DNA of 64,000 bases from a bacterium (GTDB lineage: Bacteria > CLD3 > SB21). The stretch lies in NCBI GenBank assembly GCA_013360215.1, contig JABWCP010000001.1:153144-217143 (forward strand). The letters are read 5' to 3'. The position numbers and the translations under genes are program-made. Below, in pieces: positions 34,501 through 55,822 of the stretch. The notes below the pieces were generated by a model that saw only the letters and a program-made list of their open reading frames with translations, was not told the DNA's origin and did no database searches. The first letter of the stretch is position 1. The number at the start of each line of letters is the position of its first letter.

Positions 34501-36027
34501 GTGTCATTTCGGAAAAAAATATACATAACCGGTTTTTTACTGATAATAACCTGGCTTTTTGCCGGGTTTTATCTTTTAATGCACTACCAGCGTACACAGG
34601 AACTTACCGACACGCTAATCCCCTTCGAAATTGTCAAACTTAAATCCATCGAATATCTTCGTCGGCACGCTGATACATTTGAACGATATTGGAGCCCTAC
34701 CGAAGAAACGCCAGTCCATCCGATCGTCCTTAATCAGGAATTAATCAAATTTGATGAAGAGATACAGTCGTTAATAAAGCTACATTGGGAAAGCAAGGCG
34801 TTTTGGGAGGCGCATGGGGATCACGTCGGCTCGTCATCTCTTGTCATGTACGTTACGGGCCTTATTTGGTATGACACACTTTCCGTGGACTCGGAACGGA
34901 TTCAGCTGAGCCATCTCAAAGAACTCACAGCTCAGCTTCGTAACTCCGCGCCAACCCGTGCAGGCACTACGATTGCTTCAACAGAAAAGAAAATATTAGG
35001 CACCATACATGAAATCCAAATTACCATCCATGCGCTGGATGAAACTGCCAATAAAATTCTGGAACAGAAAATCTCATATATCTCGCATCGCGGCCTTTTC
35101 GCCAAATCTATCATATTTGCAGTTTTTACACTTGCCATCATTTTGATTACATTTCTCATCATCGACATACATCGAATTTTACAAAGTATCGGCGGTATAA
35201 AAACGATCACATCCGCATTTGCCGAAGGCAAACTTGATGAACGGCTGCCCGTAGAAGGTTTTGAGGAAATACGAACCATCGCCGTATCGTTTAACGCCAT
35301 GGGCGAACGCATGCAGGAATTGGACAAACTCAAATCCGATTTTTTTAACAAACTCGTACATGACTTCAAAAGCCCGCTGGATAATATCAAACAATCGGCC
35401 GATGTACTGATCAGCGGGATAACCGGCGAAACTTCGGACGGAAAACAAAAGAAGTTCTTAGAAATTATTAAAAAAAGCTCCATTCAACTCCGTACGATGA
35501 TACAAGAGCAGTTGGATGAATCCAAACTTATCGCAGGACAAAGCTCGCTTGTTTATGAACAAACAGATATTCGCCAGTTAATCCGAGAGCGAATGGAATT
35601 GCAACGCCCGACCGCCACAGCGCGCCAACTGAATTTTGCCGTAAAATTCACAGATGCCACCTTCGTCATCTCTTGTGATCGTGCAAAACTCTCGCGTGTA
35701 ATGGATAATCTGCTTAGCAATGCGATCAAATACGCATTCCCCGAGACGACCATATCAGTAGAAATTGAAGATCGCGTGCATGAAATTGAACTCCGAATCC
35801 GGGATCACGGTCCGGGCATTCCAGCAACGATGCTAACTCAAATTTTCCAAAAATACGTACGGATAGAGCATAATCGAGGTACAAACGGAACAGGTCTCGG
35901 TTTATATACCGCTAAATATATAGTGGAGTTACACAAGGGGCGCATTTGGGCATCGAATTACAATGACGGTGCCGTATTGCACGTTTTACTTCCAAAATCA
36001 CCGGGACAACCACGGCTCAATCATTAA
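34501..36027 (+). CDS. Membrane histidine kinase with HAMP, HisKA and HATPase domains
   Basis: 508 residues from a GTG with a poor ribosome site. Transmembrane segments at about 8-28 and 200-222 flank a helical periplasmic sensor region of about 170 residues. A HAMP domain (about 225-275) leads to HisKA with phospho-acceptor His287 in KLVHDFKSPLDN. The ATPase has DNLLSNAIKYAF, RDHGPGIP and GTGLGLYTAKYIVELH. A cognate response regulator is not adjacent; the next features are the tRNA and its terminator. It probably shares the efp-accB transcript. The signal is unknown. Confidence 0.9.
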   Translation: MSFRKKIYITGFLLIITWLFAGFYLLMHYQRTQELTDTLIPFEIVKLKSIEYLRRHADTFERYWSPTEETPVHPIVLNQELIKFDEEIQSLIKLHWESKAFWEAHGDHVGSSSLVMYVTGLIWYDTLSVDSERIQLSHLKELTAQLRNSAPTRAGTTIASTEKKILGTIHEIQITIHALDETANKILEQKISYISHRGLFAKSIIFAVFTLAIILITFLIIDIHRILQSIGGIKTITSAFAEGKLDERLPVEGFEEIRTIAVSFNAMGERMQELDKLKSDFFNKLVHDFKSPLDNIKQSADVLISGITGETSDGKQKKFLEIIKKSSIQLRTMIQEQLDESKLIAGQSSLVYEQTDIRQLIRERMELQRPTATARQLNFAVKFTDATFVISCDRAKLSRVMDNLLSNAIKYAFPETTISVEIEDRVHEIELRIRDHGPGIPATMLTQIFQKYVRIEHNRGTNGTGLGLYTAKYIVELHKGRIWASNYNDGAVLHVLLPKSPGQPRLNH

Positions 36028-38490: not shown

Positions 38491-38919
38491 TCAATATACT
38501 TCAAATTCATTGGAATACACGGTGTCTTTACGTCCAGGATCACCGTCCCACAAAAAGGGAATTCCTACACGGTAAATACCCGGTTTTACGACGAAAATAT
38601 CCAGTACCGTTGTTTCATTTATATTGATAATAACTGTATCGCTTTGAGGATCATCTATAAGCGATGAAGTAACCAAACTCCATCGATCCTTTACAATTTT
38701 TTCACGAAAGGCAGAATTATACAGTAACAAATATAAAATTGATTCCGTTTTATTGGAAATATGTATATAAATACGCTCATTATGATATAGTGATTTATCA
38801 GTTAAAACTGATAAGCCAACTCTAAGATCATCTTGTTGATCATTTGAAATACATGACTCTAGAAGAAAACACTGTAATAGAACAATCACCATCACAATTA
38901 AAGACCATTTTTGCCTCAT
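38491..38919 (-). CDS. Small lipoprotein of unknown function
   Basis: 142 residues with a GGGAGGAT ribosome site. A hydrophobic signal peptide (about 8-20) ends in LLESC, a plausible though imperfect lipobox with Cys23 as lipid acceptor. The rest is beta-rich with an NKTESILYLLLYN stretch, resembling small intracellular-inhibitor-like or immunoglobulin-like folds. I do not recognise the family. It lies downstream of the FGGY kinase terminator and seems to be a single gene. 38316-38490, between it and the flavoprotein gene, is AT-rich with nothing recognised. Confidence 0.7.
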   Translation of the reverse strand: MRQKWSLIVMVIVLLQCFLLESCISNDQQDDLRVGLSVLTDKSLYHNERIYIHISNKTESILYLLLYNSAFREKIVKDRWSLVTSSLIDDPQSDTVIININETTVLDIFVVKPGIYRVGIPFLWDGDPGRKDTVYSNEFEVY

Positions 38920-38984: not shown

Positions 38985-39014
38985 TTTAAAAAATAAAACC
39001 CTCGTTACCGAGGG
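38985..39014 (-). terminator. Terminator of the FGGY kinase gene
   Basis: Minus-strand stem CCCTCG-gtaa-CGAGGG followed by TTTTATTTTTT, 10 bases after the stop at 39024. Confidence 0.85.
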
Positions 39015-39023
39015 CTTCAATTC

Positions 39024-40556
39024 TTATAAATTTGTTTCCCAAATTCCTTTAGCAACCATGTCGTACAATCGTTGTTGCCGCTGTCTGGCATTTTTATATA
39101 TCGCATTATCTTTTGGATGCGGCTTATATGTTTTTCCAAGAGGTACGGGAGCCATATCAATATTTTTGATAGCCCCTATTGATTCTAACGCCAAAATTGC
39201 CGCTCCACGCGCAGAGCCTTCGGCCTCACCTGATTGGGTGATCGGGAATCCGATCACATCTGCCGCAAGTTGTGTCAATGCTCCTGAATCAACAAAACCT
39301 CCTCCCGAAGCCAATATTTGCTTCACGGGCATTTGATTCTTTTTAAAGATTTCATAAATCGCTGCATAACGGTAACATAAGCTTTCCAATGTCACGCGTA
39401 AGATATCTTCACGCGTTGTGCTGAGATTAAAGCCGTTGATCATGCCGCGCGCATTTTGATGCCAACCGGTACTTCGTTCACCAGCCCAAAAAGGTAACAT
39501 TGTAAGACCATGTGCGCCCGGCTTGGTCGTGTTAAGTGCAGCATCCACGCTCTTTTTGCCGCCCTCGATCGCTAAGCGACTTAGCATCCACTTGCGTAAA
39601 TTACCACCATCACTCAAAGCGCCGCCCATCAGGAATCTCTTGCGGTCAACCCGATAGACCCAAAGTTCGGATGGAATAGTAACATCCTTCGCTTCCCACA
39701 TAACGCGAAGCGCACCGGAAGTACCCATAACTATACAAAGCTGATCTTTTTTCACTGCACCGGTACCCACGTTAGAACTGGCGCCGTCGCCAACGGCGGG
39801 AAGCCACGGGATCTGCGCCAAAGCCGGCCAGCGACGCGCATACTCTGATTTGAGTCCACGCAAAGGCGTATCCAAATCACCGAGTTCCCCGAGTTGGCCC
39901 GATTTGACCGGTAGCACGCTCAACATTTTGTCATCCCAGTTGCACGTGTTTTGGTTAAAAAGTCCCGTACCCGATGCCATCGAAATACCGCAAATTACTT
40001 TCCCAAAAAAGACATGATAGAGATATTCACCGATGGATAACCATGTTGTCGTGCGACGGAAATCTTCTTTATTATATTTATGCATCCACAATAATTTCGC
40101 AGGCAAATAACTGGGGTGAAGCACGCATCCGGTAAGGCGGTGTGCTTCTTCAGGATCAATGCGTTTACGAAGGTCGTCAATAACTATGCGTGGTCTGGTG
40201 TCAGCCCAATTAATGAGCGGAGTCGTTGGTTTTCCGCGCATATCAATGCCCATCATATTATGCCAAAAAGTATCAAACCCTACGGCTTTTATATCGTTGG
40301 CATCTTTTCCCATCGCTTCCATGATCGCATCAATGCACTGCGATGTTGCATCAACAATAAACTTAGGATCGGCAAAAACACCACCATCGGGCGTTACCTG
40401 CATCATATATCCTACCTGATGAACTAATTTTTTTACAGAGCGTCCTTGCGCGTCATATACTACCGCACGTGTGGAGGATGTGCCGATATCAATAGCTAGA
40501 ATTAACGGGCGATCAGCTTTTTTGAGCTTAACGGGTTCGTTAGAAAACATTTTCAT
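39024..40556 (-). CDS. FGGY-family carbohydrate kinase (gluconokinase/xylulokinase-like)
   Basis: 510 residues from the ATG at 40556, chosen because GGAG lies 6 bases upstream; an in-frame start at 40601 has none. Actin-like ATPase domains: the N-terminal phosphate-1 motif is ILAIDIGTSSTRAVVYD. The catalytic aspartate is in LPAVGDGASSNVGTGA and the adenosine motif is ILASGGGFVDSGALTQLAAD. It phosphorylates a sugar or sugar acid. WADTRP and the overall pattern favour the gluconokinase branch, but the substrate is not certain. No transporter or isomerase is nearby. It has its own promoter and terminator. Confidence 0.88.
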   Translation of the reverse strand: MKMFSNEPVKLKKADRPLILAIDIGTSSTRAVVYDAQGRSVKKLVHQVGYMMQVTPDGGVFADPKFIVDATSQCIDAIMEAMGKDANDIKAVGFDTFWHNMMGIDMRGKPTTPLINWADTRPRIVIDDLRKRIDPEEAHRLTGCVLHPSYLPAKLLWMHKYNKEDFRRTTTWLSIGEYLYHVFFGKVICGISMASGTGLFNQNTCNWDDKMLSVLPVKSGQLGELGDLDTPLRGLKSEYARRWPALAQIPWLPAVGDGASSNVGTGAVKKDQLCIVMGTSGALRVMWEAKDVTIPSELWVYRVDRKRFLMGGALSDGGNLRKWMLSRLAIEGGKKSVDAALNTTKPGAHGLTMLPFWAGERSTGWHQNARGMINGFNLSTTREDILRVTLESLCYRYAAIYEIFKKNQMPVKQILASGGGFVDSGALTQLAADVIGFPITQSGEAEGSARGAAILALESIGAIKNIDMAPVPLGKTYKPHPKDNAIYKNARQRQQRLYDMVAKGIWETNL

Positions 40557-40604
40557 ACGCGTCTCCGGTGATGGTACAATTAGGATACGTAAGGCAGGCA
40601 ACTC

Positions 40605-40838: not shown

Positions 40839-43800
40839 TTACGGCCGCTTGCGAACCGGTAAGTACACGATGAACTCCGAGCCTTTACCTACTTCGCTCC
40901 GCACTTCGATCTTGCCGTGATGCCGCTGAACAATCCCGTATGCTTCCGTTAGACCAAGCCCACGTCCCGACCCCACATCACGTGTTGTAAAAAACGGATC
41001 ATAAATTTTATCCATAACGGACGAAGACATGCCAATGCCATTATCGCGAATCGAAATGACAGCATATTCGTTTTGTTCATGCGCCTGTGTGGATGTGGAT
41101 AAATCAATTTGACCTTCTTTTAACCCTCTATCCTGTATAGCTTGCACCGCATTCGTGAGAATATTGACGAGGGCTTGATTTATTTCGGCCGTATTACAAT
41201 ATACGGCAGGAACTCCGGTATATTTTTTTTCAATCGTAACAAAATCATACTGCTTGATAAAAAGATCACAAATAATATCAAGATTGTCTTCTAAAGAAAT
41301 TAACTTCCAATCGGATTCATTGAGATTACTAAAACGTTTAAGGTTGTCAATGATAGCCTTAATACGCATGCCGCCTACCATCGAACCCTCAAGTGAAGGC
41401 ATCATCTCGGCATGTAATTTTTTAAACACACCGGAACCGTCATCCGGCCGATTTTTCAGCTGATCGCACGTTTCTTTGATCTGCTGTATATTACCTATTA
41501 CAAACGTAAGCGGGTTATTCACTTCGTGCGCAATACCGGCAACCATCTGCCCTAAGGAAGCCATTTTTTTGCTTTGGATGATCTGCGCTTGTTGTTCTCG
41601 AATCTGTTGATTTTTTATCGCCAACTGCGAGTTTTGTTCATCCAGCATTTTGTTTTTTTCAACCACTTCAAACGTACGCTCACGCACTTCGTTTTCCAGT
41701 TCACGCTTACGGAGTTCTATGGCGTATACACGCCGGCGGTATATAACATAGGTGACACTCAAAAGTAAAATAACTACCGTGATACGAAACCACCACGTCA
41801 TCCAAAATGGCGGATGGATCACTACCGCTATTTTAATTCCATCCGTATTCCATATATCATCATTATTTGATGCACGTACCCTAAACGTATAACTTCCCGG
41901 ATCAAGATTGGTATACGACGCGGTTCGTTTACTGCCAACAAAATTCCAATCTGTTTCAAAACCTTCCATAATATACGCGTACTGATTTTTCCCGGGAGCG
42001 CGGAAATTGAGGGCCGCAAATTCAAACGAAAAGACATAATCTTTGTACGACAAGTGAATTTCTTCTGTTTCTGATATGTGGATTGGAAATTCAAAATTAC
42101 GATTAAATTTCTGAAACCCCGTAACGGCTATTTGCGGAATAAAAGGATTATCGCGTACGCTGTCAGGATGAAAAACGTTGAAGCCGTTGATCCCTCCGAA
42201 ATACATCCATCCATCGCGCGCCTTGAGTCCAGCATTCATGCTAAATTCATTACTTTGCAAGCCATCATACACATCAAAATTACGAATGCGATTGTGCGCG
42301 GTAGGGCCACCGTTTTCAAAATTATTGATGTCAATACGAGACAACCCTTTGTTCGTACTAATCCACAAATGTCCATTACCGTCTTGCTGGATTGAAGCAA
42401 TGACATCGTTGGGTAAACCATGCTTCTCTGTGATTTGAAAAATTTTATCGTTGGAAGGATCAATACGATTTAATCCACCGCTGGTACCAACCCAAATCTT
42501 TCCTTGCGCGTCCTCGAGTATTGATACGATGGCATTATGACTCAGACTGTTCGGATTGGACGGATCATGCACAAAACGCGTGAACGCATACGTTTTCGGA
42601 TCCAGCCGCACAATACCTCCGCCGCTCGTTCCCACCCATATATATCCTCGGCTATCCTGCATCAATACCTGGACGCCATTGTCCGCTGGATTTCGACCGT
42701 CGTAACGTACGCGCCGAAATTCACCTTTTTTTTCGTCAAAAATTTGTAGCCCAATCGCGCGTGTACCAACCCATAATGTTCCTGAGGTATCTTCCAATAT
42801 GGCAAAAACGACATTATTGCTTTGCGCCGATGATATAGGATCTATTCGGTAATTTTTAAATTGCTCGGTCTTACGATCAAAACGACTCAGCCCTCCGCCA
42901 CGCGTACCTACCCATAGATTATGTTTGCGGTCTTCATAAATCACCGATACGCGATTATTACTGATACTCTTTGCATCGGCAGGATTATGTTTAAAGTGGC
43001 GGTAGGTCTGGTTTTTCGGATCATAACGATTTAGACCCGCGTCGTCGGTCCCGATCCAAATGATTCCCTCATGATCTTCGGCAAAACTAATCACAATATT
43101 TCCGCTGAGTCCTTGCGGTTGTGAAAGATCCAAGTGATAATGCTTAAATCGTTCTTTGTATGGGTCGTACATATTGACACCGCCACCATACGTGCCAAAC
43201 CATAAAATACCCATGCGATCTTCGCAAAAAGCATTTACAAAATTATTACTGATACTGGAGGGATCCGCGGGGTTATTACGATAATTATAAAACTTTTGGG
43301 TCGCCTTATCATGAATACTTACGCCCCCATTGGTGCAAACCCACAAACGGTCCTGACGGTCAAAATAAATTGATTTGATCCAATTATCCGCGATCGAATT
43401 GGGATCGGCTGAGTTATGGCGGAATATTTCAAATTCATCCGTTGCTACATTCCAGCGCGATAACCCGTTATTATTTGTACCAACCCACAAATAACCTTTA
43501 CGGTCTTCCGATAAAGCCCATATGCGTTCTTCGGGAACGGGCGAACGTTGCCCGGGCTTATACCGGTAACGGGTAAATTTTCCCGTAGCGCGATCCATTC
43601 TATTCAAGCCGCCACCATTGGTACCTATCCAAAAATTATTTTTTGAATCCTCGAAAACCGTCATGACATAATTATGACTCAGGCTTGTCGAGTCCTGCGG
43701 ATTGTTTTTATATGCAATAAAACGATCTGTTGCACGATCATACTTGCAAAGGCCGGCGTAACGCGTCCCAACCCATAGCACACCGGCGCGGTCTACATAC

Positions 43801-44213
43801 AATGCCCACACGCGGTTATCACTGATTGAGTGTGGATCGTCGGCTATATTACGATAGGATTTGAACTTTTGAGTCTTACGATCAAATCGGTTTAATCCTC
43901 CGCCGTTAGTACCGATCCACAGGTTTTCTTCTTTGTCCTCAATAATCGACCAAACGTAGTTTTCTGATATCGTCGTCGAATCGCGCGGATCATGGCGAAA
44001 AACGGTAAAACCGTATCCATCATAGCGATTGAGCCCGTCCATCGTACCGATCCACAAAAATCCTTTGTGGTCTTGATAAATCGAAAAAACTTTACTTTGC
44101 GACAGGCCTTCTCCGATGGATAGGCGTTCGAATTTAATACGATCCGATTGGGCGAGCACAATCGTGCCACTCCAACAAATCCAAACTATAAGTTGAACGA
44201 TATGTTTTTTCAT
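40839..44213 (-). CDS. Two-component-propeller histidine kinase, fourth of the array
   Basis: 1124 residues. A signal peptide (ending near residue 21) leads to a periplasmic sensor of 14 WxGT-type Reg_prop repeats, enough for two seven-bladed propellers. A Y_Y_Y beta domain (about 690-770, YAYIMEGFETDWNFVG) and one transmembrane helix (about 785-805) follow. A coiled coil leads to a HisKA domain with His896 in VAGIAHEVNNPL. The HATPase has NILTNAVQAI, RDNGIGM and GRGLGLTEAYGI. There is no receiver or AraC domain, unlike classic Bacteroidota hybrid sensors. Its start shares one base with the stop of the preceding kinase gene (TGATG), so translation is coupled. Signal and partner are unknown. 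Confidence 0.93.
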   Translation of the reverse strand: MKKHIVQLIVWICWSGTIVLAQSDRIKFERLSIGEGLSQSKVFSIYQDHKGFLWIGTMDGLNRYDGYGFTVFRHDPRDSTTISENYVWSIIEDKEENLWIGTNGGGLNRFDRKTQKFKSYRNIADDPHSISDNRVWALYVDRAGVLWVGTRYAGLCKYDRATDRFIAYKNNPQDSTSLSHNYVMTVFEDSKNNFWIGTNGGGLNRMDRATGKFTRYRYKPGQRSPVPEERIWALSEDRKGYLWVGTNNNGLSRWNVATDEFEIFRHNSADPNSIADNWIKSIYFDRQDRLWVCTNGGVSIHDKATQKFYNYRNNPADPSSISNNFVNAFCEDRMGILWFGTYGGGVNMYDPYKERFKHYHLDLSQPQGLSGNIVISFAEDHEGIIWIGTDDAGLNRYDPKNQTYRHFKHNPADAKSISNNRVSVIYEDRKHNLWVGTRGGGLSRFDRKTEQFKNYRIDPISSAQSNNVVFAILEDTSGTLWVGTRAIGLQIFDEKKGEFRRVRYDGRNPADNGVQVLMQDSRGYIWVGTSGGGIVRLDPKTYAFTRFVHDPSNPNSLSHNAIVSILEDAQGKIWVGTSGGLNRIDPSNDKIFQITEKHGLPNDVIASIQQDGNGHLWISTNKGLSRIDINNFENGGPTAHNRIRNFDVYDGLQSNEFSMNAGLKARDGWMYFGGINGFNVFHPDSVRDNPFIPQIAVTGFQKFNRNFEFPIHISETEEIHLSYKDYVFSFEFAALNFRAPGKNQYAYIMEGFETDWNFVGSKRTASYTNLDPGSYTFRVRASNNDDIWNTDGIKIAVVIHPPFWMTWWFRITVVILLLSVTYVIYRRRVYAIELRKRELENEVRERTFEVVEKNKMLDEQNSQLAIKNQQIREQQAQIIQSKKMASLGQMVAGIAHEVNNPLTFVIGNIQQIKETCDQLKNRPDDGSGVFKKLHAEMMPSLEGSMVGGMRIKAIIDNLKRFSNLNESDWKLISLEDNLDIICDLFIKQYDFVTIEKKYTGVPAVYCNTAEINQALVNILTNAVQAIQDRGLKEGQIDLSTSTQAHEQNEYAVISIRDNGIGMSSSVMDKIYDPFFTTRDVGSGRGLGLTEAYGIVQRHHGKIEVRSEVGKGSEFIVYLPVRKRP

Positions 44214-47200
44214 CAGGATACGCGCTTTATAACCGGGAGGCTGATAATAAATTCAGAGCCTTTACCTTCTTCACTTATCACTTCGATATCACCATTATGT
44301 TTCTTTACAATACCATAACTGATGGATAAACCCAGACCCATTCCTTTACCAATTTCTTTCGTTGTAAAAAACGGATCAAATATACTTTTAGCCATCGATG
44401 GATGCATACCGATACCATTATCTTTGATATGGATGCGAATATTATTTTCTGACAGAACTGTTTTAATAGTGATAATACCCTCGTTTGGAATAGCCTCGAT
44501 GGCATTGGTTAAAATATTAAGAAATACCTGGTTGAGCAAACCGGGATAACAATCAAGCATGGGAATTGTACCGAACTGCTTATGGACGGTTATGCGGTCG
44601 CTCAACATGGACTTTAAAACAGTCAGAGTGGACTCAATCCCCTCGTGCAAGTCGGCCGGGATAAATCCCATCGCATCGGTACGCGAAAATTTACGCAAAT
44701 CCTGAACGATATGTTTGATACGTTGACTGCCATTTTTACAAGAGTCGAGTATCTTCATTGTTTCCTGTCGGACATATTCGTATTCATGCCGTTCGCGAAT
44801 TTCCATCATACCCAATTTAATTTTCTCAGGATCGGCCGATTCGATAAGTCGCTCGTACTCCGTGATGATGTGGTCCCAGCGCAGTACGTTTTCTTCGAGC
44901 AGGTGGAGATTGCCATCTACAACCGTCAGCGGATTATTGATCTCATGGGCGATACCGGCCACCATTTGACCGAGCGATGCCATTTTTTCGGCATGCACCA
45001 GTTGGGATTGTGTTTCGTTGAGTTCCTGCAACGTTTTTTCGAGTTGGGAATTTATGGTTTTCAAATCGTCGCGTTGTGCTTTGATTTCACGCGTCCGGTT
45101 GGACACTTCGACTTCAAGTTTATTTTTTTGAAGTTCGATAACACGCACACGGTAGCGTATAAATGCCCACAGCAGTCCCATAAGCGTACTAAAACTCAAT
45201 GCGATAAACCACCACGTTTTCCAAAAAGGCGGAATAATCCGTATCGGAATCGAAATACCCTGCTCATTCCAAACGCCGTCATTATTGGATCCGCGTACAT
45301 AAAAGACATAATTGCCTGCATCCAGGTTCGTATAATTCACATAGCGGCGTGTACCCGCAAGGATCCAGTTTTTATCGAATCCTTCTAATTTGTATGCATA
45401 CTGATTTTTGGCCGGCTCTGTAAAATCAAGCGAAGCAAATTCAAATGAGAAGTCTTCATTGTAATCAAGGGTAATCGGATCATGGCGGTACACCGATTCA
45501 ATATAGGCGTCAACAAATGCTTTATCGGATTTGTGCATTGTTTTGAATGCCGTTAATACGATTTGCGGAATATGCGGATTGTCCATCGCAAGTTTAGGGT
45601 AAAAACGATTAAAGCCGTTGGTCCCGCCGAAAAATATTTCTCCGCTGCGGCTTTTGTAGTAACTGCCATATTTGAATTCATTATTTTGAAGCCCGTCACT
45701 TTCATCAAAATTACGAAACATCAGTTTTTCCGATTTGTCATTCTCATCTTGGATCAGACGTGCACGGGACAAACCTTGGACCGTGCTGATCCAAAGATTG
45801 CCATGTTCGTCCGGCAATATCGCATATACGTAGTTATCCGGAAGCCCGTCTTTTTCGTAATAGTTATAAAACTTCAAGCTACCGTCCGTAGTGCGTACGA
45901 TACGATTGAGTCCTGAGCTGGCGCCGATCCAAATATTTTTGTCCGAATCTTCGGAAATCGCAAAAATAACATCACTACCCAATGAAGAATTACTTTCCCC
46001 TCGCCCGGCGATACGTTTAAAGGACGCATAACCCGTGCGATCCTGAACGGCATCCAACCGATTGAGCCCTCCGCCAAATGTACCAACCCAAATCTTATCT
46101 TCCGAATCCATCAGTATAGAGCTGACTTCATTATGGCTCAAACTCTGCGGGCGATGAGGCTCATTGCGATAATGAACAAATATTTCTTTTCCGTTTTCTA
46201 CGATCAATTTATCCAGGCCGTTGCCGAAAGTTCCTATCCACAGTTGATTGTATTTATCGCTCAACAGTACGGATATGTCGTTAGCTGCGATACTCAGCGA
46301 ATCCTGCGGACGATGTTGGTACACGGTAAACCGATTTGTTCGGCGATCAAATTTATTTAATCCGCCGCCTTCGGTACCAAGCCATATCATTCCGTTTTTA
46401 TCTTCCGCAATGGTTCGCACTTCGTTGCTACTCAGACTGCCCGGCCCGGCGCGGTATGCCGTAAAACGATCGGTACCGGCATCATATCGATTGAGTCCGT
46501 CGTGCGTACCGATCCACAAAATCCCATCGCTATCCTCCCAAAACGAACGGACAATATTATTGATCAAGCTGTTGGGATTATCCGGTTTGTGACGTATGTG
46601 ATTAAATTTGACCGGCTTCAAATCAAGTTTGTTCAAACCGCCGCCGCCGTATGTACCGATCCACAGATTGCCCGACCGGTCTTCGCATAACGCTCGGATT
46701 TCATTATCGGACAACGACGACGCATCGTTGGGATTGTGTCGAAAAAATATTTTGGTATTACTGTTAAAGTCTATCCGATCCAATCCCAAACGAGTCCCGA
46801 CCCATACGATATTTTGTCGATCGACCATCACAGTTACAATATCGGCATGTGTTGTGGACGCATCATTACCGGAATGAACAGGTATTTTTTCAAAAACAGG
46901 ATTCAGAATGTTCTTGCGGTCTAATTTGCAAAGACCACCGTCTTCCGTACCGATCCAAATATTATTATTAGCGTCTTTAAACAAAGCTGTAATATTATTG
47001 GATGGGAGTCCCGAACCGCCCTGCTTATCGGCAAAGTAACGTATTATTTCACCGTTGGTTATTTTATTAAGTCCCTGCTGCGTACCGATCCAGATATCGC
47101 CATTCTCATCATCCGTGATCGCTGTAATCCACGAATGTGAAATGGAATTGGCTACTTGACTGCTGCTAAAATACCGCACAAACCGCATTGCAGTCTCGGT

Positions 47201-47707
47201 TCGCATCGAATCGTACGGAATGACGTTGAGGCCATTTTTGGTGCCCACCCAGATATTGCCATGCCGGTCCTCCATAATCGCCGTAATCGAATTATGACTT
47301 ATCGTACGTTGATTTTCAGGATCCGAAATCATGTGCTTAAATTTTTTTCGAGCCCGATCAAAACGGTTCAAACCTTTATTTAAGGTACCGACCCAAAAAT
47401 TATGATTTCGATCTTCATACAATGCCGTGATCCAATTATCGGAAATAGATTCCGGATCCGTAGGACTTGATTTGTACACCGTAAAACGATATCCGTCATA
47501 TTGGTTGAGGCCATTGCGCGAGCCGAACCACATCAAACCGGTGTGATCTTGCAAAATCACGCCGACAGTGCTCTGCGATAAACCCTGATCGCCGGACAGA
47601 TGCTCAAACTTCATATTTATCTGTTGCGAAAAAACATCATGCGGAGCGCCCATCCCAACGAAAACCAACATCACGCCGATGCTTCGAAAAAACTTTTGGT
47701 ACTGCAT
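44213..47707 (-). CDS. Two-component-propeller histidine kinase, third of the array
   Basis: 1164 residues with the same plan as its downstream neighbour. It has a signal peptide ending near FSQ, 14 WxGT-type repeats, a Y_Y_Y domain (YAYKLEGFDKNWILAG), one transmembrane helix near residue 820 and a coiled coil. HisKA follows with His921 in VAGIAHEINNPLTVVDGN. The ATPase has NILTNAIEAIPN, KDNGIGM and GKGMGLGLSISYG. No receiver or DNA-binding domain is fused. It is 5 bases from the preceding kinase gene and overlaps the next by one base. Sequence divergence between the sensors suggests different ligands. Confidence 0.93.
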   Translation of the reverse strand: MQYQKFFRSIGVMLVFVGMGAPHDVFSQQINMKFEHLSGDQGLSQSTVGVILQDHTGLMWFGSRNGLNQYDGYRFTVYKSSPTDPESISDNWITALYEDRNHNFWVGTLNKGLNRFDRARKKFKHMISDPENQRTISHNSITAIMEDRHGNIWVGTKNGLNVIPYDSMRTETAMRFVRYFSSSQVANSISHSWITAITDDENGDIWIGTQQGLNKITNGEIIRYFADKQGGSGLPSNNITALFKDANNNIWIGTEDGGLCKLDRKNILNPVFEKIPVHSGNDASTTHADIVTVMVDRQNIVWVGTRLGLDRIDFNSNTKIFFRHNPNDASSLSDNEIRALCEDRSGNLWIGTYGGGGLNKLDLKPVKFNHIRHKPDNPNSLINNIVRSFWEDSDGILWIGTHDGLNRYDAGTDRFTAYRAGPGSLSSNEVRTIAEDKNGMIWLGTEGGGLNKFDRRTNRFTVYQHRPQDSLSIAANDISVLLSDKYNQLWIGTFGNGLDKLIVENGKEIFVHYRNEPHRPQSLSHNEVSSILMDSEDKIWVGTFGGGLNRLDAVQDRTGYASFKRIAGRGESNSSLGSDVIFAISEDSDKNIWIGASSGLNRIVRTTDGSLKFYNYYEKDGLPDNYVYAILPDEHGNLWISTVQGLSRARLIQDENDKSEKLMFRNFDESDGLQNNEFKYGSYYKSRSGEIFFGGTNGFNRFYPKLAMDNPHIPQIVLTAFKTMHKSDKAFVDAYIESVYRHDPITLDYNEDFSFEFASLDFTEPAKNQYAYKLEGFDKNWILAGTRRYVNYTNLDAGNYVFYVRGSNNDGVWNEQGISIPIRIIPPFWKTWWFIALSFSTLMGLLWAFIRYRVRVIELQKNKLEVEVSNRTREIKAQRDDLKTINSQLEKTLQELNETQSQLVHAEKMASLGQMVAGIAHEINNPLTVVDGNLHLLEENVLRWDHIITEYERLIESADPEKIKLGMMEIRERHEYEYVRQETMKILDSCKNGSQRIKHIVQDLRKFSRTDAMGFIPADLHEGIESTLTVLKSMLSDRITVHKQFGTIPMLDCYPGLLNQVFLNILTNAIEAIPNEGIITIKTVLSENNIRIHIKDNGIGMHPSMAKSIFDPFFTTKEIGKGMGLGLSISYGIVKKHNGDIEVISEEGKGSEFIISLPVIKRVS

Positions 47708-47712
47708 ATAGG

Positions 47713-50700
47713 TTAAACCTTAACCTTTAGATTTTTATCCGATTGTTTGTCCGCCCGCGGCAAACTAAAACTGAAGGTCGAACCTTGCCCTTTGTTGCTG
47801 CGAACCAAGGTCTGACCATTATGAATTTCGATAATTTTCTTTACGATAGCCAGCCCCAAGCCTGTACTGGATTCTCCGGCCGTGGGTTTGGCGCTCAGGC
47901 GTTTAAAGCTCATAAATACGGTTTGTTTATCTTCGTCACTAAGGCCTTGACCGGTATCTTCAACGTGCGTTACCACATCCTGATCACGCACTTCATGATA
48001 CACACGCACTTTACCGCCGGGATACGTATATTTGATCGCATTATTGATAAGATTATCCACAACCGATTTTATTTTTTCACGATCCATCAATGTATCCGGT
48101 AAAGTCGGATCATATTCGTAATCCATGGCGATATTTTTTTGATTCGCGGCACGCCGATGCAACGGTTCCGCATCGCGAATAATAGTACCCAGATTGTCCG
48201 GCAAAACTTCTAACCGGATTTTGCCCGACTCAATAGCCGAGATGTCCAGCAATTCTCGTATGAAATGCGACATCTGATGCGATATGCGGGAAATACGGAC
48301 TAGATCTTTTACGGCTTCTTTCGGTTTGAATGTATCCGTTTCCGCATCGGCGATCAAAAGATCAATATATCCCATAATCGTTGTCAAAGGACTACGCAAA
48401 TCGTGTGCTACAATACCCAAATATTCGTTCTTTTTTTCGTTCAGATTTTCTAATTCCACATTTTTTTGTTTCAATTCCGCGGTCCGCTGCTGAATGATGC
48501 GTTCGAGATTGTCATTGGCAAGTACCAATCGCCGCTCACGATAATGAATTATCACATAAATACATAAGAAAACTAAGGCCGTATAAAAGCCAAACGCCCA
48601 CCATGATTTGAACCACGGAGATCGTATGACGAACCGCAATTGATCTTCGACACTGACTTGTTCGTAGAGATTGCGTGCACGCACCCTAAATCGAAATACT
48701 CCGTCCGGCAAATTGGTATAATCTTTACGAAACTCCGTTGACCACTCCGACCAACCCGGGTCAAAACCTTCGAGATAGTATTGAAATTGATTGGATCCGT
48801 CGCGTTCGTAGCTGCTGGCCGAAAATTCAAATCGGATATTATTGTCATAGTGCGCCAACATAACATGCCGTGATGTATCCGATAAAATCGGAATATTCTG
48901 TCTCTGGTCATTCATCACCACTGCTTTGCGTATCAGTGCATAAAATTCCGAATCCCACGCATATTGGATATTGCCGTCATAACGGATAAGTCCGTCCGCA
49001 CCGCCAAACCAGATGATGTTGCCCGATTCCGGATACGGTATATTGACGCGAAAGTCCGATATTCGCAGAAACGGATTTCTTACGGTATAAGAAATCGCAC
49101 GCGATGACGAGGCGGCATGTAAAATTTCAAATCGTTCTCCCACTTGGGCGGTCATCCACAAACCGAACTGCGGATGCTGCAAAAAGTGATGAACTACTGT
49201 TGCGCTGTCCGACAATAACGGACCAAAAAGAGTTTCACGCACAAAGTGATTATGATCCACATCGTAACGAAAAAGCCCTGATGTCGTCCCGACCAAGGGT
49301 CTCCCGTCCACTTCATACATATACATTTCGCCGATGGGTAAACCGTTAGCTCGGTCATAACGGGTAACCGGCCAGTTGAGTGAATCCCCTTCGCGTTTGA
49401 GGTGAATGACGCCTTTGAAACGCGTACCGAGCCACAAATCACCATTCAAAGACTCGGCGATCGTTCGAACTTCCTCTTTGATCGTACGATGTTCCTCGAC
49501 GCGCACCCATTGTTCTTTATCAATCCGGCACAACGCTAATCCGTCGGACAAACCAACCCACACCTGATTTGGGTTTCGTTTGGATCGCATCATATTTCGC
49601 ACCGAACGATTATCCACCATTTGTGCCTGCTGACCGGTAATCCTGAAAACACCTTGTGCCGTACCCGCAAATAATGAAACCTCATTATCCACAAAAGACC
49701 AGCACTGCGCCGTGATACCGGCGATCGGCTCAAATTTCCATATTTCCTGACTGGATGAAAGCGGAACATCCTTTTCCGGGGATGAGGGATAACGATTCAA
49801 ACGGTACACCCCCCGGCTGGTGCCCACATAAAGCGTATTATTCCAACGCGTCAATGAAAGCACAGTCCCACGCAATCCGTGTAATTCACTAAATCGCGAA
49901 TACGGACTGCCGATTTCAACCCGCGCAATGCCGTTATTCATGGCCAGCCATAATATGCCATTGTGATCAACGTACGTCGCCCAAATATTGTCATCCAATA
50001 ATCCGGAACTTTTATCTACTCTGCGAATAAAACTACCATCTTCGGATAATTCAACAACACCGCCCAAAATTGTCCCCAAAACCATATTACCGTTTTTCAG
50101 TTTTGATGCATAATACAACTGATGTTGAATAAGCCAATCATCAACCGAAGTTTTCATTGCAGCAAAACTGCTGCGTGTTGCAACAAAAAGATTTTTCTCG
50201 CGCGTTGCGATCAGAAACCGTCCGTCTTTAAACGGCAGCATACCATAAATACGCAAATTCGCAAACTCTTTACCATACGGCAATAGATGCAGCGTATCCT
50301 GATCTATTATGTATAAGCCGCGCTTGTCCTGTCTCACAAAAATCGTATTATGGATAAGATAGGAACGGTGAAACTGAGTATCAGATATAATAGCTTTGAC
50401 AAAGTGATACGAGCCGTCGGCGGCGCGTCGAAAAACGAAAAAATATTTATTGCTACGAAAATAAATTTTATCAGCAATACAGCTAATTTCCCAGATATCG
50501 GTAATTCCTTTGAACGACGAATCCAGTGATGCGCTCAGCGAATAATATTGACGAATACCCGTCGAATCTGTTTTGAGTATTCCAAACTCGCCGACCGCTC
50601 CGACATAAATCGTTCCCACCTCATCTACGGCCAAAGCACGGATCGACGTTCGATTAGGAGCAGGGATCAGACGCCAGCGGATTCCGTCGAACTCCAATAC

Positions 50701-50886
50701 GCCGTCATTGTTTCCGAAATACATTAGTCCGCGATGATCCTGTACAATAGACCAGTTTTGTGATTGTGCGCGGTACTCTTGGGGAAAGTAATTGCGGATG
50801 AACGGTTCGCCTTGCTCATCTTGCGCCGCAAGCGGCGAAAAATAAATCAAACAAAGCAGGCTGTACATTATTGTGGATTTCATCAC
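47713..50886 (-). CDS. Divergent propeller-sensor histidine kinase, second of the array
   Basis: 1057 residues. The signal peptide ends near LAAQ. The sensor is a propeller, but most blades lack the WxGT repeat signature and use forms such as LMYFGNNDG, IYVGAVGE and LWLGTRFKG. Y_Y_Y (about 675-750) and one transmembrane helix follow. The kinase core is of another type: His828 lies in LGIVAHDLRSPLTTIMGY, with VVDNLINNAIKYTYPGG and GESSTGLGLAIVKKIIEIH. This resembles ordinary HisKA/HATPase sensors and not the AHE(V/I)NNPL type of its three neighbours. It overlaps the first kinase gene by four bases (ATGA). Confidence 0.92.
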   Translation of the reverse strand: MMKSTIMYSLLCLIYFSPLAAQDEQGEPFIRNYFPQEYRAQSQNWSIVQDHRGLMYFGNNDGVLEFDGIRWRLIPAPNRTSIRALAVDEVGTIYVGAVGEFGILKTDSTGIRQYYSLSASLDSSFKGITDIWEISCIADKIYFRSNKYFFVFRRAADGSYHFVKAIISDTQFHRSYLIHNTIFVRQDKRGLYIIDQDTLHLLPYGKEFANLRIYGMLPFKDGRFLIATREKNLFVATRSSFAAMKTSVDDWLIQHQLYYASKLKNGNMVLGTILGGVVELSEDGSFIRRVDKSSGLLDDNIWATYVDHNGILWLAMNNGIARVEIGSPYSRFSELHGLRGTVLSLTRWNNTLYVGTSRGVYRLNRYPSSPEKDVPLSSSQEIWKFEPIAGITAQCWSFVDNEVSLFAGTAQGVFRITGQQAQMVDNRSVRNMMRSKRNPNQVWVGLSDGLALCRIDKEQWVRVEEHRTIKEEVRTIAESLNGDLWLGTRFKGVIHLKREGDSLNWPVTRYDRANGLPIGEMYMYEVDGRPLVGTTSGLFRYDVDHNHFVRETLFGPLLSDSATVVHHFLQHPQFGLWMTAQVGERFEILHAASSSRAISYTVRNPFLRISDFRVNIPYPESGNIIWFGGADGLIRYDGNIQYAWDSEFYALIRKAVVMNDQRQNIPILSDTSRHVMLAHYDNNIRFEFSASSYERDGSNQFQYYLEGFDPGWSEWSTEFRKDYTNLPDGVFRFRVRARNLYEQVSVEDQLRFVIRSPWFKSWWAFGFYTALVFLCIYVIIHYRERRLVLANDNLERIIQQRTAELKQKNVELENLNEKKNEYLGIVAHDLRSPLTTIMGYIDLLIADAETDTFKPKEAVKDLVRISRISHQMSHFIRELLDISAIESGKIRLEVLPDNLGTIIRDAEPLHRRAANQKNIAMDYEYDPTLPDTLMDREKIKSVVDNLINNAIKYTYPGGKVRVYHEVRDQDVVTHVEDTGQGLSDEDKQTVFMSFKRLSAKPTAGESSTGLGLAIVKKIIEIHNGQTLVRSNKGQGSTFSFSLPRADKQSDKNLKVKV

Positions 50887-53800
50887 GAACCGTGTTGGTA
50901 GTTTTCGTGAAATAATGTTTTTACCGGGAGATCAATGCACAGGGTCGTACCGATACCGGGTTCACTTTCGACAGTGACATCGCCGCCATGTTTTTGCACC
51001 GTCGTAAAAACTTCTGACAAACCCAGTCCAGCACCTGCCCCGATAGGTCGCGTTGTAAAAAACGGATCAAAAATTTTCTTTCGAACAGAGGAATCAATGC
51101 CCACACCGTTATCAATGAAGCAAAGACGAATTTTATTCGTATCCGTTTGCCATTCGGCAGATAATGTAATACGACCATCTCCGCTTGCGAGCAAATTTTG
51201 TTTTTCCGCATCGCGGATTGCTTTGACCGAATTATCGAGGATATTAATGAAAGCCTGATGCATAAGCGTCAAGTGAACGGTTATAAAGGGAATTTCGGTG
51301 GTTTTGCGTTCAATAACAATATCTTTATGCTGGCGCATAAACAGATCCACCACCATATTGAGCGACTCCAGCAAATTGGTTTCTTGTATTTCTTCCTGAT
51401 CCAGACTGCTAAACGCTCGCAGGCTATTTACGATTTTGATAATACGGGTACTACCTTCTACAGAGCTTCTAAACATGTCATCCAGATCTTTTTCGAGGTA
51501 GTCGTAATCCAAGGTATGTTTGAATTTTTCATACTGTTTTTTTTCATCATCTGTCCATGATTCCGTGTGTGAGCGTTTATCGAGAAACCCCATGAAAAGA
51601 AATAATCGTTGAACCCGCGCGCGAAGAAGTTGAATATTGGAATACACAAACGTCAGAGGATTATTGATCTCGTGCGCAATGCCGGCCACCATATGTGCCA
51701 ATGAACCGATTTTTTCGGATTGAAGAATCTGAACCTGAGCGCGTTTAAGCGAATCCATCGCTTTCTCTAATTCGTATGTCCGCGCCTGGACTTGACGTTC
51801 TAATTCTCTTTTTTGATTCTGTATTTGCCTGAAGCGATACACAAGAACCGCGCATAAAAAGGCACCTACCAGGAATTGAAACCACGCTGTTTCCCAAAAT
51901 GGCGGTTCTACAATCAAGGTGATCGCACGCCCTTCCTCATTCCACACATTATCATTATTACTGGCTTTGACCTTGAATACGTACGTGCCGCCGTCCAGAT
52001 TGGTATACGTCGCTTCGCGGCGGCTACCGGCGTCTATCCAGTCGCGATCAAAACCTTCTAATTTGTAGCGGTATAAATTTTTTTCGCTATGGGTATAATT
52101 GAGTGCCGCAAATTCGAACGCGATGAAATTATCTTTGTATGAAATAATGATCGTGTCCGTTTCAGAAACGGATCGTTCGAGGACGAAGGGTTTGTTAAAT
52201 TTTTTGAAACCCGCGATTATTACCGGAGGTACATAACGGTTTTCTTTGATACTGTCCGGATGAAAAGTCACCAGCCCTCTGTTACTTCCAAAATACATAC
52301 GGCCGTCATGGGCGCGTAAGGCCGCACCGACACCGAATTCCGCAGAGATCAAGCCGTCGCCCTCATCAAAATTGCGAAATGTTTCCGTTTTAGTGTCTAA
52401 TCGGCTCAGGCCTTTATTGGTACTGATCCAAAGGCGCCCGGTTTGGTCTTCCAAGATACCGTTAATGACGTTGTTCGCTAAACCATGTTTATCGGTATAT
52501 GTTTTCCAATGACCCGTCTGTTTATCGTAACGATTAAGACCGCCGCCGGCTGTCCCGATCCATATCAGACCGTCACGACTTTCAAAAATACGTAAAACAA
52601 GATCGCTTGAGAGCGACGACGAATCGTGGTTTGAACTTAAATGCCGGGTAAATATTTCTTTTTTTCGATCCCACACACTGATGCCCCCGCCGAACGTGCC
52701 GACCCACAACAACCCTTCTTTATCCTGGTGCAACGCGCGAATTTGATTGCTACTGACCGTATATCCAAGCGCCGGATCATGCGTAAAACGACGAAACGTA
52801 CGCGCATTACGATCAAAACGATTAAGACCGCCGCCGGAGGTTCCAATCCAAACGGTATTTAACGGATCCACATAAACTGTAAAAACATTATCGTTGCTAA
52901 GCGAATTCGCATCATGCGGATCATTGCGAAAAACTTCAAAAGTTCCCCTTTTTCGGTCCCAACGATTGAGCCCTCCTTCATTGGTACCGACCCAAAGATC
53001 ACCGTTTTGGTCTTCGGCTATACTCCATATATCATCATGACTGAGACCGTGTTGGGGTTTTTGAAAATGAAGAAATTTTTTCTGATCCGGCAAATACCGG
53101 TTCAGACCGCCGCCGAATGTTCCTACCCAAATAGTGCGGGACTGATCTTCATGCAGCGCATAAATGCGATCTTGACTCAGAGAGTACGAATTGGACGGAT
53201 CATAACGATAGTTGATAAATCGATGCCCCGTGGGACTGATATAACTTACACCGCCACCCCATGTACCAAACCACACCGTGCCGGATCGATCTTCCACTAT
53301 AGATATTACGCTTTTATGAATTATACTACCCGGATCGGTAACATCAGGAAGAAATCGAATAAACTTCCCGGTAACACGATCCATTAAATTTAACCCTCCA
53401 TTAAGCGTGCCTACCCAAAAATTTCCACGTTTGTCTTCATACAAAGCCCGTACAAAATCATGACTCAAACTCTGAGAATCGTTCGGATGATTTTTGAATG
53501 TTGTAAAAGTACGCGTAACATAATCAAAACGATTGAGACCCCCTCCGGATGTAGCCACCCATAAGACACCGGCACGATCTTCGTAAATCGCGCGCACCGT
53601 GTTGTGACTAAGGGATCGAATATTACCCGGTTCATTTTTGAAAACGGTAAATTTTCCCGTCAGCGGATCCAACAAATTAAGACCGCCGCCATCCGTCCCT
53701 ACCCAAAAATTACCGCGGCTATCTTCATACAATGCCCACACGTTGTCAGACGATAAACTGGTCGGATCAAGCGGATTGTGACGGTAATGTTTGAATTTCC

Positions 53801-54272
53801 CATCCGCCGTCATTTGATCCAAACCGCCGCGAAATGTGCCGATCCATAAAATTCCTTTGCGATCACGATACAGTGCACGTATGGTATTATCTCCGAGCGA
53901 AGTTGCATCCGTAGAATCATGTTTGTAAATCGTAAATGATTCACGAATACGATCAAAGCGGCAAAGTCCTTGATTGAAAGTGCCGATCCATATGCCGTTT
54001 GCCGTATCTTCGCACAGCGTATATATAAAATTATCGCTTAACGCTTGACGCGGAGAACCTTGCCTGTATATAGCAAATGTATATCCATCATAACGATTAA
54101 GACCGTCTTGCGTACCAAACCACAAAAAACCGCGCCGGTCTTGTAATATAGTATGCACCGATCCCTCGGAAAGACCATGTTTAGTTGTGACGTGATTAAA
54201 TGAAATTTCGATTTGACCAAAAACGGGAAAGGATAGAACAAACAGCCAAGCTATGAGCGCAAGTGCTTTCAT
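50883..54272 (-). CDS. Two-component-propeller histidine kinase, first of the array
   Basis: 1129 residues. It has a signal peptide, 14 WxGT-type repeats, a Y_Y_Y domain (YRYKLEGFDRDWIDAG) and one transmembrane helix near residue 790. A coiled coil precedes HisKA with His867 in VAGIAHEINNPLTFVYSN. The ATPase has NILDNSVKAIRD, DNGVGID and GAGAGLGLSEVF. It lies 77 bases after the half-length carB. No promoter matching the window's pattern was found between them, so carB and the kinases may be one transcript. No response regulator is encoded in the operon. Confidence 0.93.
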   Translation of the reverse strand: MKALALIAWLFVLSFPVFGQIEISFNHVTTKHGLSEGSVHTILQDRRGFLWFGTQDGLNRYDGYTFAIYRQGSPRQALSDNFIYTLCEDTANGIWIGTFNQGLCRFDRIRESFTIYKHDSTDATSLGDNTIRALYRDRKGILWIGTFRGGLDQMTADGKFKHYRHNPLDPTSLSSDNVWALYEDSRGNFWVGTDGGGLNLLDPLTGKFTVFKNEPGNIRSLSHNTVRAIYEDRAGVLWVATSGGGLNRFDYVTRTFTTFKNHPNDSQSLSHDFVRALYEDKRGNFWVGTLNGGLNLMDRVTGKFIRFLPDVTDPGSIIHKSVISIVEDRSGTVWFGTWGGGVSYISPTGHRFINYRYDPSNSYSLSQDRIYALHEDQSRTIWVGTFGGGLNRYLPDQKKFLHFQKPQHGLSHDDIWSIAEDQNGDLWVGTNEGGLNRWDRKRGTFEVFRNDPHDANSLSNDNVFTVYVDPLNTVWIGTSGGGLNRFDRNARTFRRFTHDPALGYTVSSNQIRALHQDKEGLLWVGTFGGGISVWDRKKEIFTRHLSSNHDSSSLSSDLVLRIFESRDGLIWIGTAGGGLNRYDKQTGHWKTYTDKHGLANNVINGILEDQTGRLWISTNKGLSRLDTKTETFRNFDEGDGLISAEFGVGAALRAHDGRMYFGSNRGLVTFHPDSIKENRYVPPVIIAGFKKFNKPFVLERSVSETDTIIISYKDNFIAFEFAALNYTHSEKNLYRYKLEGFDRDWIDAGSRREATYTNLDGGTYVFKVKASNNDNVWNEEGRAITLIVEPPFWETAWFQFLVGAFLCAVLVYRFRQIQNQKRELERQVQARTYELEKAMDSLKRAQVQILQSEKIGSLAHMVAGIAHEINNPLTFVYSNIQLLRARVQRLFLFMGFLDKRSHTESWTDDEKKQYEKFKHTLDYDYLEKDLDDMFRSSVEGSTRIIKIVNSLRAFSSLDQEEIQETNLLESLNMVVDLFMRQHKDIVIERKTTEIPFITVHLTLMHQAFINILDNSVKAIRDAEKQNLLASGDGRITLSAEWQTDTNKIRLCFIDNGVGIDSSVRKKIFDPFFTTRPIGAGAGLGLSEVFTTVQKHGGDVTVESEPGIGTTLCIDLPVKTLFHENYQHGS

Positions 54273-54349: not shown

Positions 54350-55822
54350 TCAAGCCAGCGCCGCGCGGAGCGATCCTTCCAATTCGATTATTTCACGGAT
54401 ATTATTGAGAAACCAGGGGTCTATAAATGTGTAGCGGTGAATATCTTCTACCGTCATACCCATCTTGAAACCGTCACGTATGGCGAACATCCGTTGTGAA
54501 TTGGGTACGCGGAGTTTATTGATAACTTCCTGACGATACGCTTCGACGGCCGTTTCATCTGACGCATCTGCCGGCGGATTGTCTTTACCATCTGCGCCAA
54601 GTCCAAATCGCCCGTTTTCGAGCGAACGCAAAGCTTTTTGTAATGACTCTTTAAAGTTACGGCCAATGGCCATCGCCTCACCGACCGATTTCATCTGCAC
54701 ATTGAGCGTTGTATTGGCGCCTTGAAATTTTTCGAAATCCCAACGCGGAATTTTGGTCACTACATAATCAATCGTCGGTTCAAACGATGCCGGGGTTTTT
54801 TTCGTAATATCGTTCGGTATCTCATCTAATGTGTATCCGATAGCAAGTTTGGCGGCGATTTTTGCAATCGGAAACCCTGTTGCTTTGGAGGCTAACGCCG
54901 AACTGCGCGACACACGCGGATTCATCTCGATCACGATCATGTCACCGTTAGCGGGATTAATAGCGAATTGAATATTGGAACCTCCGGTTTCAACACCGAT
55001 TTTACGAATAATCTTCAATGCGGCATCGCGCATTTTCTGATATTCTTTATCCGTCAGTGTTTGCGCCGGTGCGACGGTGATCGAGTCGCCTGTGTGCACG
55101 CCCATCGGATCGAAATTTTCGATCGAACAAACAATGACGACGTTATCGTTTTTATCGCGCATTACTTCCAGTTCATATTCTTTCCACCCGATCACGGATT
55201 CTTCGACGAGCACTTCACTGATCGGACTCGCTGCCAACGCTTTGACGATGAGATCGTTATATTCGTCAATGTTATATGCTACAGCGCCGCCCGTTCCGCC
55301 CAGCGTAAAAGACGGTCTTAAAATAATCGGGTAATCAAATTCGGATACCGCTTCGTTGGCGTCCTGCACTGTACGAACAAATCGTCCTTTGGGTACGTGC
55401 AAGCCGATGCGTTCCATGGCTTCTTTAAAAAGTTCGCGATCTTCGGCTGTTTGAATGGAATCATACTTTGCGCCGATCATTTCGACATTATATTTTTCAA
55501 GCACGCCGGATTTGAAAAGCTCCACCGACGTATTGAGTGCCGTTTGGCCGCCCATAGTCGGTAACAAGGCATCCGGGCGCTCGCGCTCAATTATTTTTTC
55601 AACCATCGCCGGGGTAATCGGTTCGATATAAATACGATCCGCCGTTTCCGGATCGGTCATGATCGTGGCGGGATTACTGTTGATCAGAATTACACGGTAG
55701 CCTTCTTCTTTGAGGGCTCGGCAGGATTGAGTTCCGGAATAGTCAAATTCGCAAGACTGACCTATGACGATCGGCCCGCTACCAATGACTAAAATTGATT
55801 TGATGTCGGTACGTTTGGGCAC
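54350..55822 (-). CDS. carB: Carbamoyl-phosphate synthetase large chain, N-terminal half (split CarB)
   Basis: 490 residues, where a normal CarB has about 1070. It covers the carboxyphosphate-synthesis half: [21 protein letters not shown] at the N-terminus, the ATP-grasp region ([17 protein letters not shown]) and [19 protein letters not shown]. It stops inside the oligomerisation domain just after IDPWFLNNI. The downstream 77 bases do not continue CarB in any frame, so this is not a simple frameshift. Split CarB1/CarB2 genes are established in Methanocaldococcus and Aquifex, with CarB1 of similar length. The CarB2 half and carA are not in the window. Function in arginine and pyrimidine synthesis is inferred on that basis. 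Confidence 0.88.

Follow-up and report, generated by a model that had tools for sequence, protein, structure and literature searches.

A chromosomal slot for tandem orphan propeller-sensor histidine kinases in one small bacterial family

Introduction

Known propeller-sensor kinases include the hybrid two-component systems (HTCS) of Bacteroides, in which a periplasmic double propeller is followed by a Y_Y_Y domain, one membrane helix and a HisKA/HATPase core (BT4663 and BT3049, structures 4a2l and 3v9f; PMC3243724). An orphan kinase of this kind is also known by experiment: ReeS of Clostridium perfringens, 26–29% identical to BT3334 and BT4663 (PMC3762733). Here we analyse a 64,000-nucleotide stretch of bacterial DNA (the window), which carries four propeller kinases, HK1 to HK4, one after another on the same strand. 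The preliminary description of this DNA proposed that they form a multi-input signalling unit, perhaps feeding one remote regulator or assembling into hetero-oligomers. Comparison with related genomes leads us to a different view, in which the position on the chromosome is conserved and the kinases found there change.

Results

The four genes are transcribed from the minus strand head to tail, in the order HK1, HK2, HK3, HK4 (Table 1). Their lengths (1057–1164 codons) and coordinates are exactly as first described, as are their junctions: HK1 and HK2 overlap by 4 bases, HK2 and HK3 are separated by 5 bases, and HK3 and HK4 overlap by 1 base, so that the tight coupling proposed earlier is borne out by ends that overlap or nearly abut. 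HK2 has an alternative start, an ATG right after the GTG, which would turn the HK1/HK2 junction into a 1-base TGATG overlap. In a Pfam scan every one of the four proteins matched Y_Y_Y, HisKA and HATPase_c and none matched Response_reg, HTH or an AraC-type DNA-binding domain, and in each kinase one strong hydrophobic segment follows Y_Y_Y, starting at residues 762–832. Each protein had also been credited with a signal peptide; all four N-termini are signal-like by eye, but a simple hydropathy threshold is passed only by those of HK1 and HK4. A pattern search recovered the H, N, G1 and G2 motifs of HK1, HK3 and HK4 intact; for HK2 the patterns gave AHDLRSP, NLINNAIKY and DTGQGL, with STGLGLAIV recognised by eye. 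The G+C content of the array resembles that of the window, so composition gives no hint of recent arrival. Promoter and terminator scans returned sites no more numerous than expected by chance.

Table 1. Position of the kinase array and other features in the window.
Feature	Position	Strand	Description
HK1	50883-54272	-	1129 aa; signal-like N-terminus, double propeller, Y_Y_Y, TM, HisKA (AHEINNP), HATPase_c; first in the row
HK2	47713-50886	-	1057 aa; divergent sensor, predicted double propeller, Y_Y_Y, TM, PhoR/HK853-class core (AHDLRSP); GTG start
HK3	44213-47707	-	1164 aa; propeller kinase, AHEINNP core; the sole member with a clear syntenic orthologue
HK4	40839-44213	-	1124 aa; propeller kinase, AHEVNNP core, shorter DHp hairpin
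carB N-terminal half	54350-55822	-	490 aa; conserved upstream border of the slot
FGGY-family sugar kinase	39024-40601	-	conserved downstream border; true start probably near 40556, from alignment with relatives
Terminator-like hairpin with T run	38994-39019	-	just 3' of the FGGY gene; weak evidence, total matches not above chance
Small protein	38491-38919	-	no Pfam match; g3 and g4 also have relatives (28–31% identity) past the FGGY gene
HAMP-HisKA-HATPase kinase	34501-36027	+	separate kinase adjoining EF-P and a biotin/lipoyl protein; no receiver nearby either
GAF-SpoIIE phosphatase	26993-29269	-	
GAF-SpoIIE phosphatase	12697-14667	+	

The Reg_prop matches have E-values of 1e-69 to 1e-78 in HK1, HK3 and HK4 but are marginal in HK2 (6e-6). 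The whole sensor of HK1 aligns with the crystal structures of BT4663 (4a2l, E 6.5e-119) and BT3049 (3v9f); by sequence, the Y_Y_Y end alone of HK2 matches them. An AlphaFold model of HK2, built on an 11-sequence alignment, has pLDDT of ~90 across most of the sensor, and the PDB entry that it matches best is 4a2l, the double propeller of BT4663 (E 1e-36, 18% identity; TM 0.73–0.75 on the target for the best chains). Because of this model and its structural match, the earlier statement that all four kinases have propeller sensors, read directly from Pfam for the other three, holds for HK2 as well.

The kinase cores fall into two classes. HK1, HK3 and HK4 have the H-box AHE[IV]NNP and score highest with T2SS_HK/AtoS/Esp-type models, while HK2 has AHDLRSP and scores highest with PnpS/PhoR models and HK853-type structures; core identity is 38–43% among the first three and only 23–26% between HK2 and the others. 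Counted from the histidine to the LxxFS-like motif, the DHp hairpin comprises 85, 52, 84 and 63 residues in HK1, HK2, HK3 and HK4, respectively. Sensor identity among the four is 25–44%, in agreement with the divergence noted before, and DHp identity is 18–43%.

To locate the same site in other genomes we used the carB N-half and the FGGY kinase as markers of its borders; we compared the window genome (genus g1; 3.72 Mb, 56 contigs) with six family relatives in three other genera (g2 to g4) and with two genomes of a sister family in its class. The order carB(N) – propeller kinases – FGGY was found in three of the four genera, g1, g3 and g4, and beyond the two families the other genomes searched are related to it no more closely than by taxonomic domain. 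This slot holds four kinases in g1 and two each in g3 and g4. In g3, G002 (L064) has a 1164-aa AHE-class kinase followed by a 1280-aa protein, in which an HK1-like sensor precedes an HK2-type core, and the two contig ends available from G004 (L081, L082) are consistent with this arrangement. In g4, G006 (L067) and G005 (L066, where the FGGY gene is cut by the contig end) have a 1260-aa protein, again with an HK1-like sensor and an HK2-type core (49–55% identity), followed by an HK3 orthologue (53%). The 1260-aa protein contains an extra segment of ~150–170 residues before HisKA, which in the slot protein at L066:5221-9003 appears GAF-like by eye and has no Pfam match. The third g4 genome, G003 (L065), has the G006-type pair plus a 244-aa frame (L065:16016-16750), in which the start of an HK2-like sensor is joined to the end of an HK2-like HATPase, with the middle gone; the frame would be either an internally deleted HK2-like relic or an assembly misjoin. 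The four-gene set and order of the window were found in no relative. Thus the locus is conserved in related genomes but the four-gene order is not, and the variation in gene number and order among relatives means that there is no fixed four-part unit.

Both core classes are represented in each of the g1, g3 and g4 slots, which may be due to chance, given three genera. No receiver or response regulator gene is present in any slot seen in g1, g3 and g4, so none is linked to the slot in the relatives; on the window's contig the closest receiver domain is 34.8 kb away from the HK1 Y_Y_Y domain, and the reported lack of a response regulator stands. In g2, G001 has carB(N) followed by a different gene with no propeller kinase, an FGGY gene, and an HK2 relative (40%) on another contig (L061); this is the one family genome lacking the slot, and it is 85% complete. 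The sister family has no FGGY homologue above threshold. A scan for HK2 over wider genome contigs gave no match, and an HK3 profile scan detected only distant relatives, mostly at 30–43% identity, from many phyla, in a collection that may lack records close to the window genome.

The borders have features of their own. In the window's family carB is split: the N half in the window covers model positions 1-474 of 1058, and the C half (model 477-1057) is on another contig (L087:8816-10621). In the sister family carB is a single fused gene of 1068–1082 aa. The kinase slot is located exactly at the carB break. The FGGY kinase is conserved across the family but stays below every curated NCBIfam cut-off, the best being gluconokinase at 252 of 649 bits. 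We found nothing usable in the literature on split carB or on tandem propeller kinases.

Trees were calculated for 61 sensors and 38 cores. HK3 forms a clade with three g4 proteins at 99–100% in both, and HK2 belongs to a separate sensor clade of 13 and to a separate core clade, while the positions of HK1 and HK4 relative to other paralogues lack resolution in both trees. HK1, HK3 and HK4 as one clade are rejected (AU p=0.023); HK1 and HK4 as sisters are compatible with the data (AU p=0.82). A recent tandem duplication of the whole row, an outcome that would have spoken against the preliminary reading, is ruled out by the sensor identities and the trees. Heads and cores have been exchanged, since the HK2-type core sits behind an HK1-like sensor in g3 and g4; the site persists, and its content is altered by gain, head/core exchange and loss. 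The g4 slot kinases have dN/dS of 0.08–0.11 (carB half 0.03–0.05, FGGY 0.01) and are under purifying selection, a measurement which applies to these proteins rather than to HK1, HK2 and HK4 themselves.

Propeller kinases with no receiver nearby are common in the window genome. It encodes 29 Y_Y_Y proteins (28 at a stricter threshold), compared to 10–20 in the family relatives; only about four of the 29 are hybrids, and, not counting the array, seven or more lie over 13 kb from any receiver or on a contig that has none. The expectation, taken over from Bacteroidota, of hybrids beside SusC/SusD-type genes therefore does not fit this genome. No SusC or SusD was found among the 30 larger window proteins scanned. 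More generally, with 5 kb as the limit, 28 of the 80 HATPase loci of the genome lack a receiver nearby, and 29 receiver loci likewise lack a kinase.

In other genomes, two or more consecutive Y_Y_Y genes occur at 9 loci among 80 relatives; the receiver/HATPase survey of these other loci relied on home-made profiles and on loci cut by contig ends, so that its counts are lower bounds. A row larger than that of the window, L176 (2-23458) from a Ferruginibacter MAG, consists of seven consecutive AHEI[QK]NP histidine kinases, four of them with Y_Y_Y, and continues past both ends of a 23-kb stretch without a receiver. At L131 two overlapping propeller kinases are followed by one receiver and one receiver-kinase. 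Non-hybrid HE-class propeller kinases elsewhere often sit beside receivers of 122–132 aa (L071 of the window genome, L141, L152, L158) or beside receiver-kinase proteins (L164, L152). These neighbours hint at the type of partner, and the unlinked small receivers of the window genome at C12:37476, C7:64380, C6:88619, C2:135858 and C5:166798 are therefore the first candidate partners of the array kinases.

Discussion

What is the role of such a row of kinases then? We propose, with a probability of about 0.6, that the locus is a sensor slot of independent homodimeric kinases signalling to unlinked regulators. The slot would be a fixed chromosomal position in one small family, between the carB N-half and FGGY, at which full-length non-hybrid propeller kinases are gained, recombined with heads swapped between core classes, and lost. 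Each kinase would work as an independent homodimer, its periplasmic double propeller and Y_Y_Y domain binding a ligand, possibly a carbohydrate in view of the BT4663 precedent and the FGGY neighbour. The change upon ligand binding would be relayed through the one membrane helix into the DHp bundle and lead to autophosphorylation of the kinase. Response regulators whose genes lie elsewhere, probably stand-alone receivers, would then accept the phosphate. The arrangement in a row would then provide co-expression of several inputs, presumably by co-transcription, and not a fixed four-part machine. Two observations sit less well with independent sensors: three genera have retained one site for several propeller kinases, which points to some joint role, and the presence of both core classes in all three could reflect pairing.

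The same observations are the basis of the most serious alternative, that the slot kinases, always with at least one AHE-class and at least one PhoR-class core, are a true multi-input unit converging on one remote regulator, much as first suggested. The overlapping genes would suit such a unit, and L131, from another phylum, offers a possible parallel in its two overlapping kinases with one receiver and one receiver-kinase behind them. However, two unrelated core classes (23–26% identity) would need to recognise one receiver, the order and number of genes vary, only three genera are involved and no co-occurring regulator has been identified, so we consider this reading improbable, if well worth keeping in mind. 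A more specific form, a dedicated shuffling site which always keeps one AHE-class and one PhoR-class kinase in joint control of one remote regulator, with inputs added by a new kinase or a head swap, is if anything a shade more doubtful.

The preliminary description saw no target genes beside the array, which overlooks the FGGY sugar kinase 3' of the slot in all three slot-bearing genera. The kinases might accordingly sense a carbohydrate and control this neighbouring gene, in a local sugar regulon; BT4663-type sensors are their closest solved relatives, and in g3 the gap to FGGY is only ~45 bp. In the window, however, this gap is about 240–280 bp, G001 has the FGGY gene but none of these kinases next to carB, we detected neither a transporter nor a glycosidase beside the FGGY gene, and the protein itself is under every curated sugar-kinase cut-off, all of which makes local control quite unlikely.

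A hetero-oligomeric receptor, in which the four proteins would form mixed dimers or larger complexes, could draw on the stoichiometric co-expression that the overlaps make plausible and on the nearly equal hairpins of HK1 and HK3. We nevertheless regard it as very unlikely: mixed dimers involving HK2 appear implausible because its core is of another class, those involving HK4 are doubtful because its hairpin falls short of those of HK1 and HK3 by ~21 residues, DHp identity is low and the set of members varies among relatives. Finally, that the row is a chance product of duplication, made of decaying and partly non-functional paralogues, could be argued from the half-deleted HK2-like frame in G003 and the turnover of members, but it is hardly to be reconciled with four full-length frames, intact catalytic motifs and the purifying selection on the g4 slot kinases.

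The slot displays the evolution of signalling inputs within one small family, with a fixed locus, changing sensors, swapped heads and what looks like a half-deleted intermediate. Should the kinases indeed have a common output, the slot would lend itself to studying how new inputs become wired to an old regulator. It further corrects the view of propeller kinases as hybrid systems of sugar loci: in this lineage the majority are separate kinases, and orphans are frequent.

How does the array compare with known systems? It shares the domain architecture of HTCS, but its kinases carry neither a receiver nor a DNA-binding domain of their own, several of them stand in a row, and there is no SusC/SusD-type polysaccharide utilisation locus among the window proteins scanned. 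It is closer to ReeS, likewise a propeller/Y_Y_Y sensor kinase with no receiver and no linked regulator, and the array cores have intact motifs; ReeS differs in being a single gene with two predicted membrane helices. The closest arrangements, all from other phyla, are L176, L111 (from a Kapaibacterium MAG) and L131, all consecutive same-strand propeller kinases with some overlapping ends. L176 and L111 resemble the window array further in having no receiver in their 23-kb stretches, whereas a receiver and a receiver-kinase close the L131 row, and all three carry one H-box class per array, while the window array mixes two. The array is thus a set of orphan propeller kinases in tandem; sensors of this kind are known, and the array does not represent a novel type of system.
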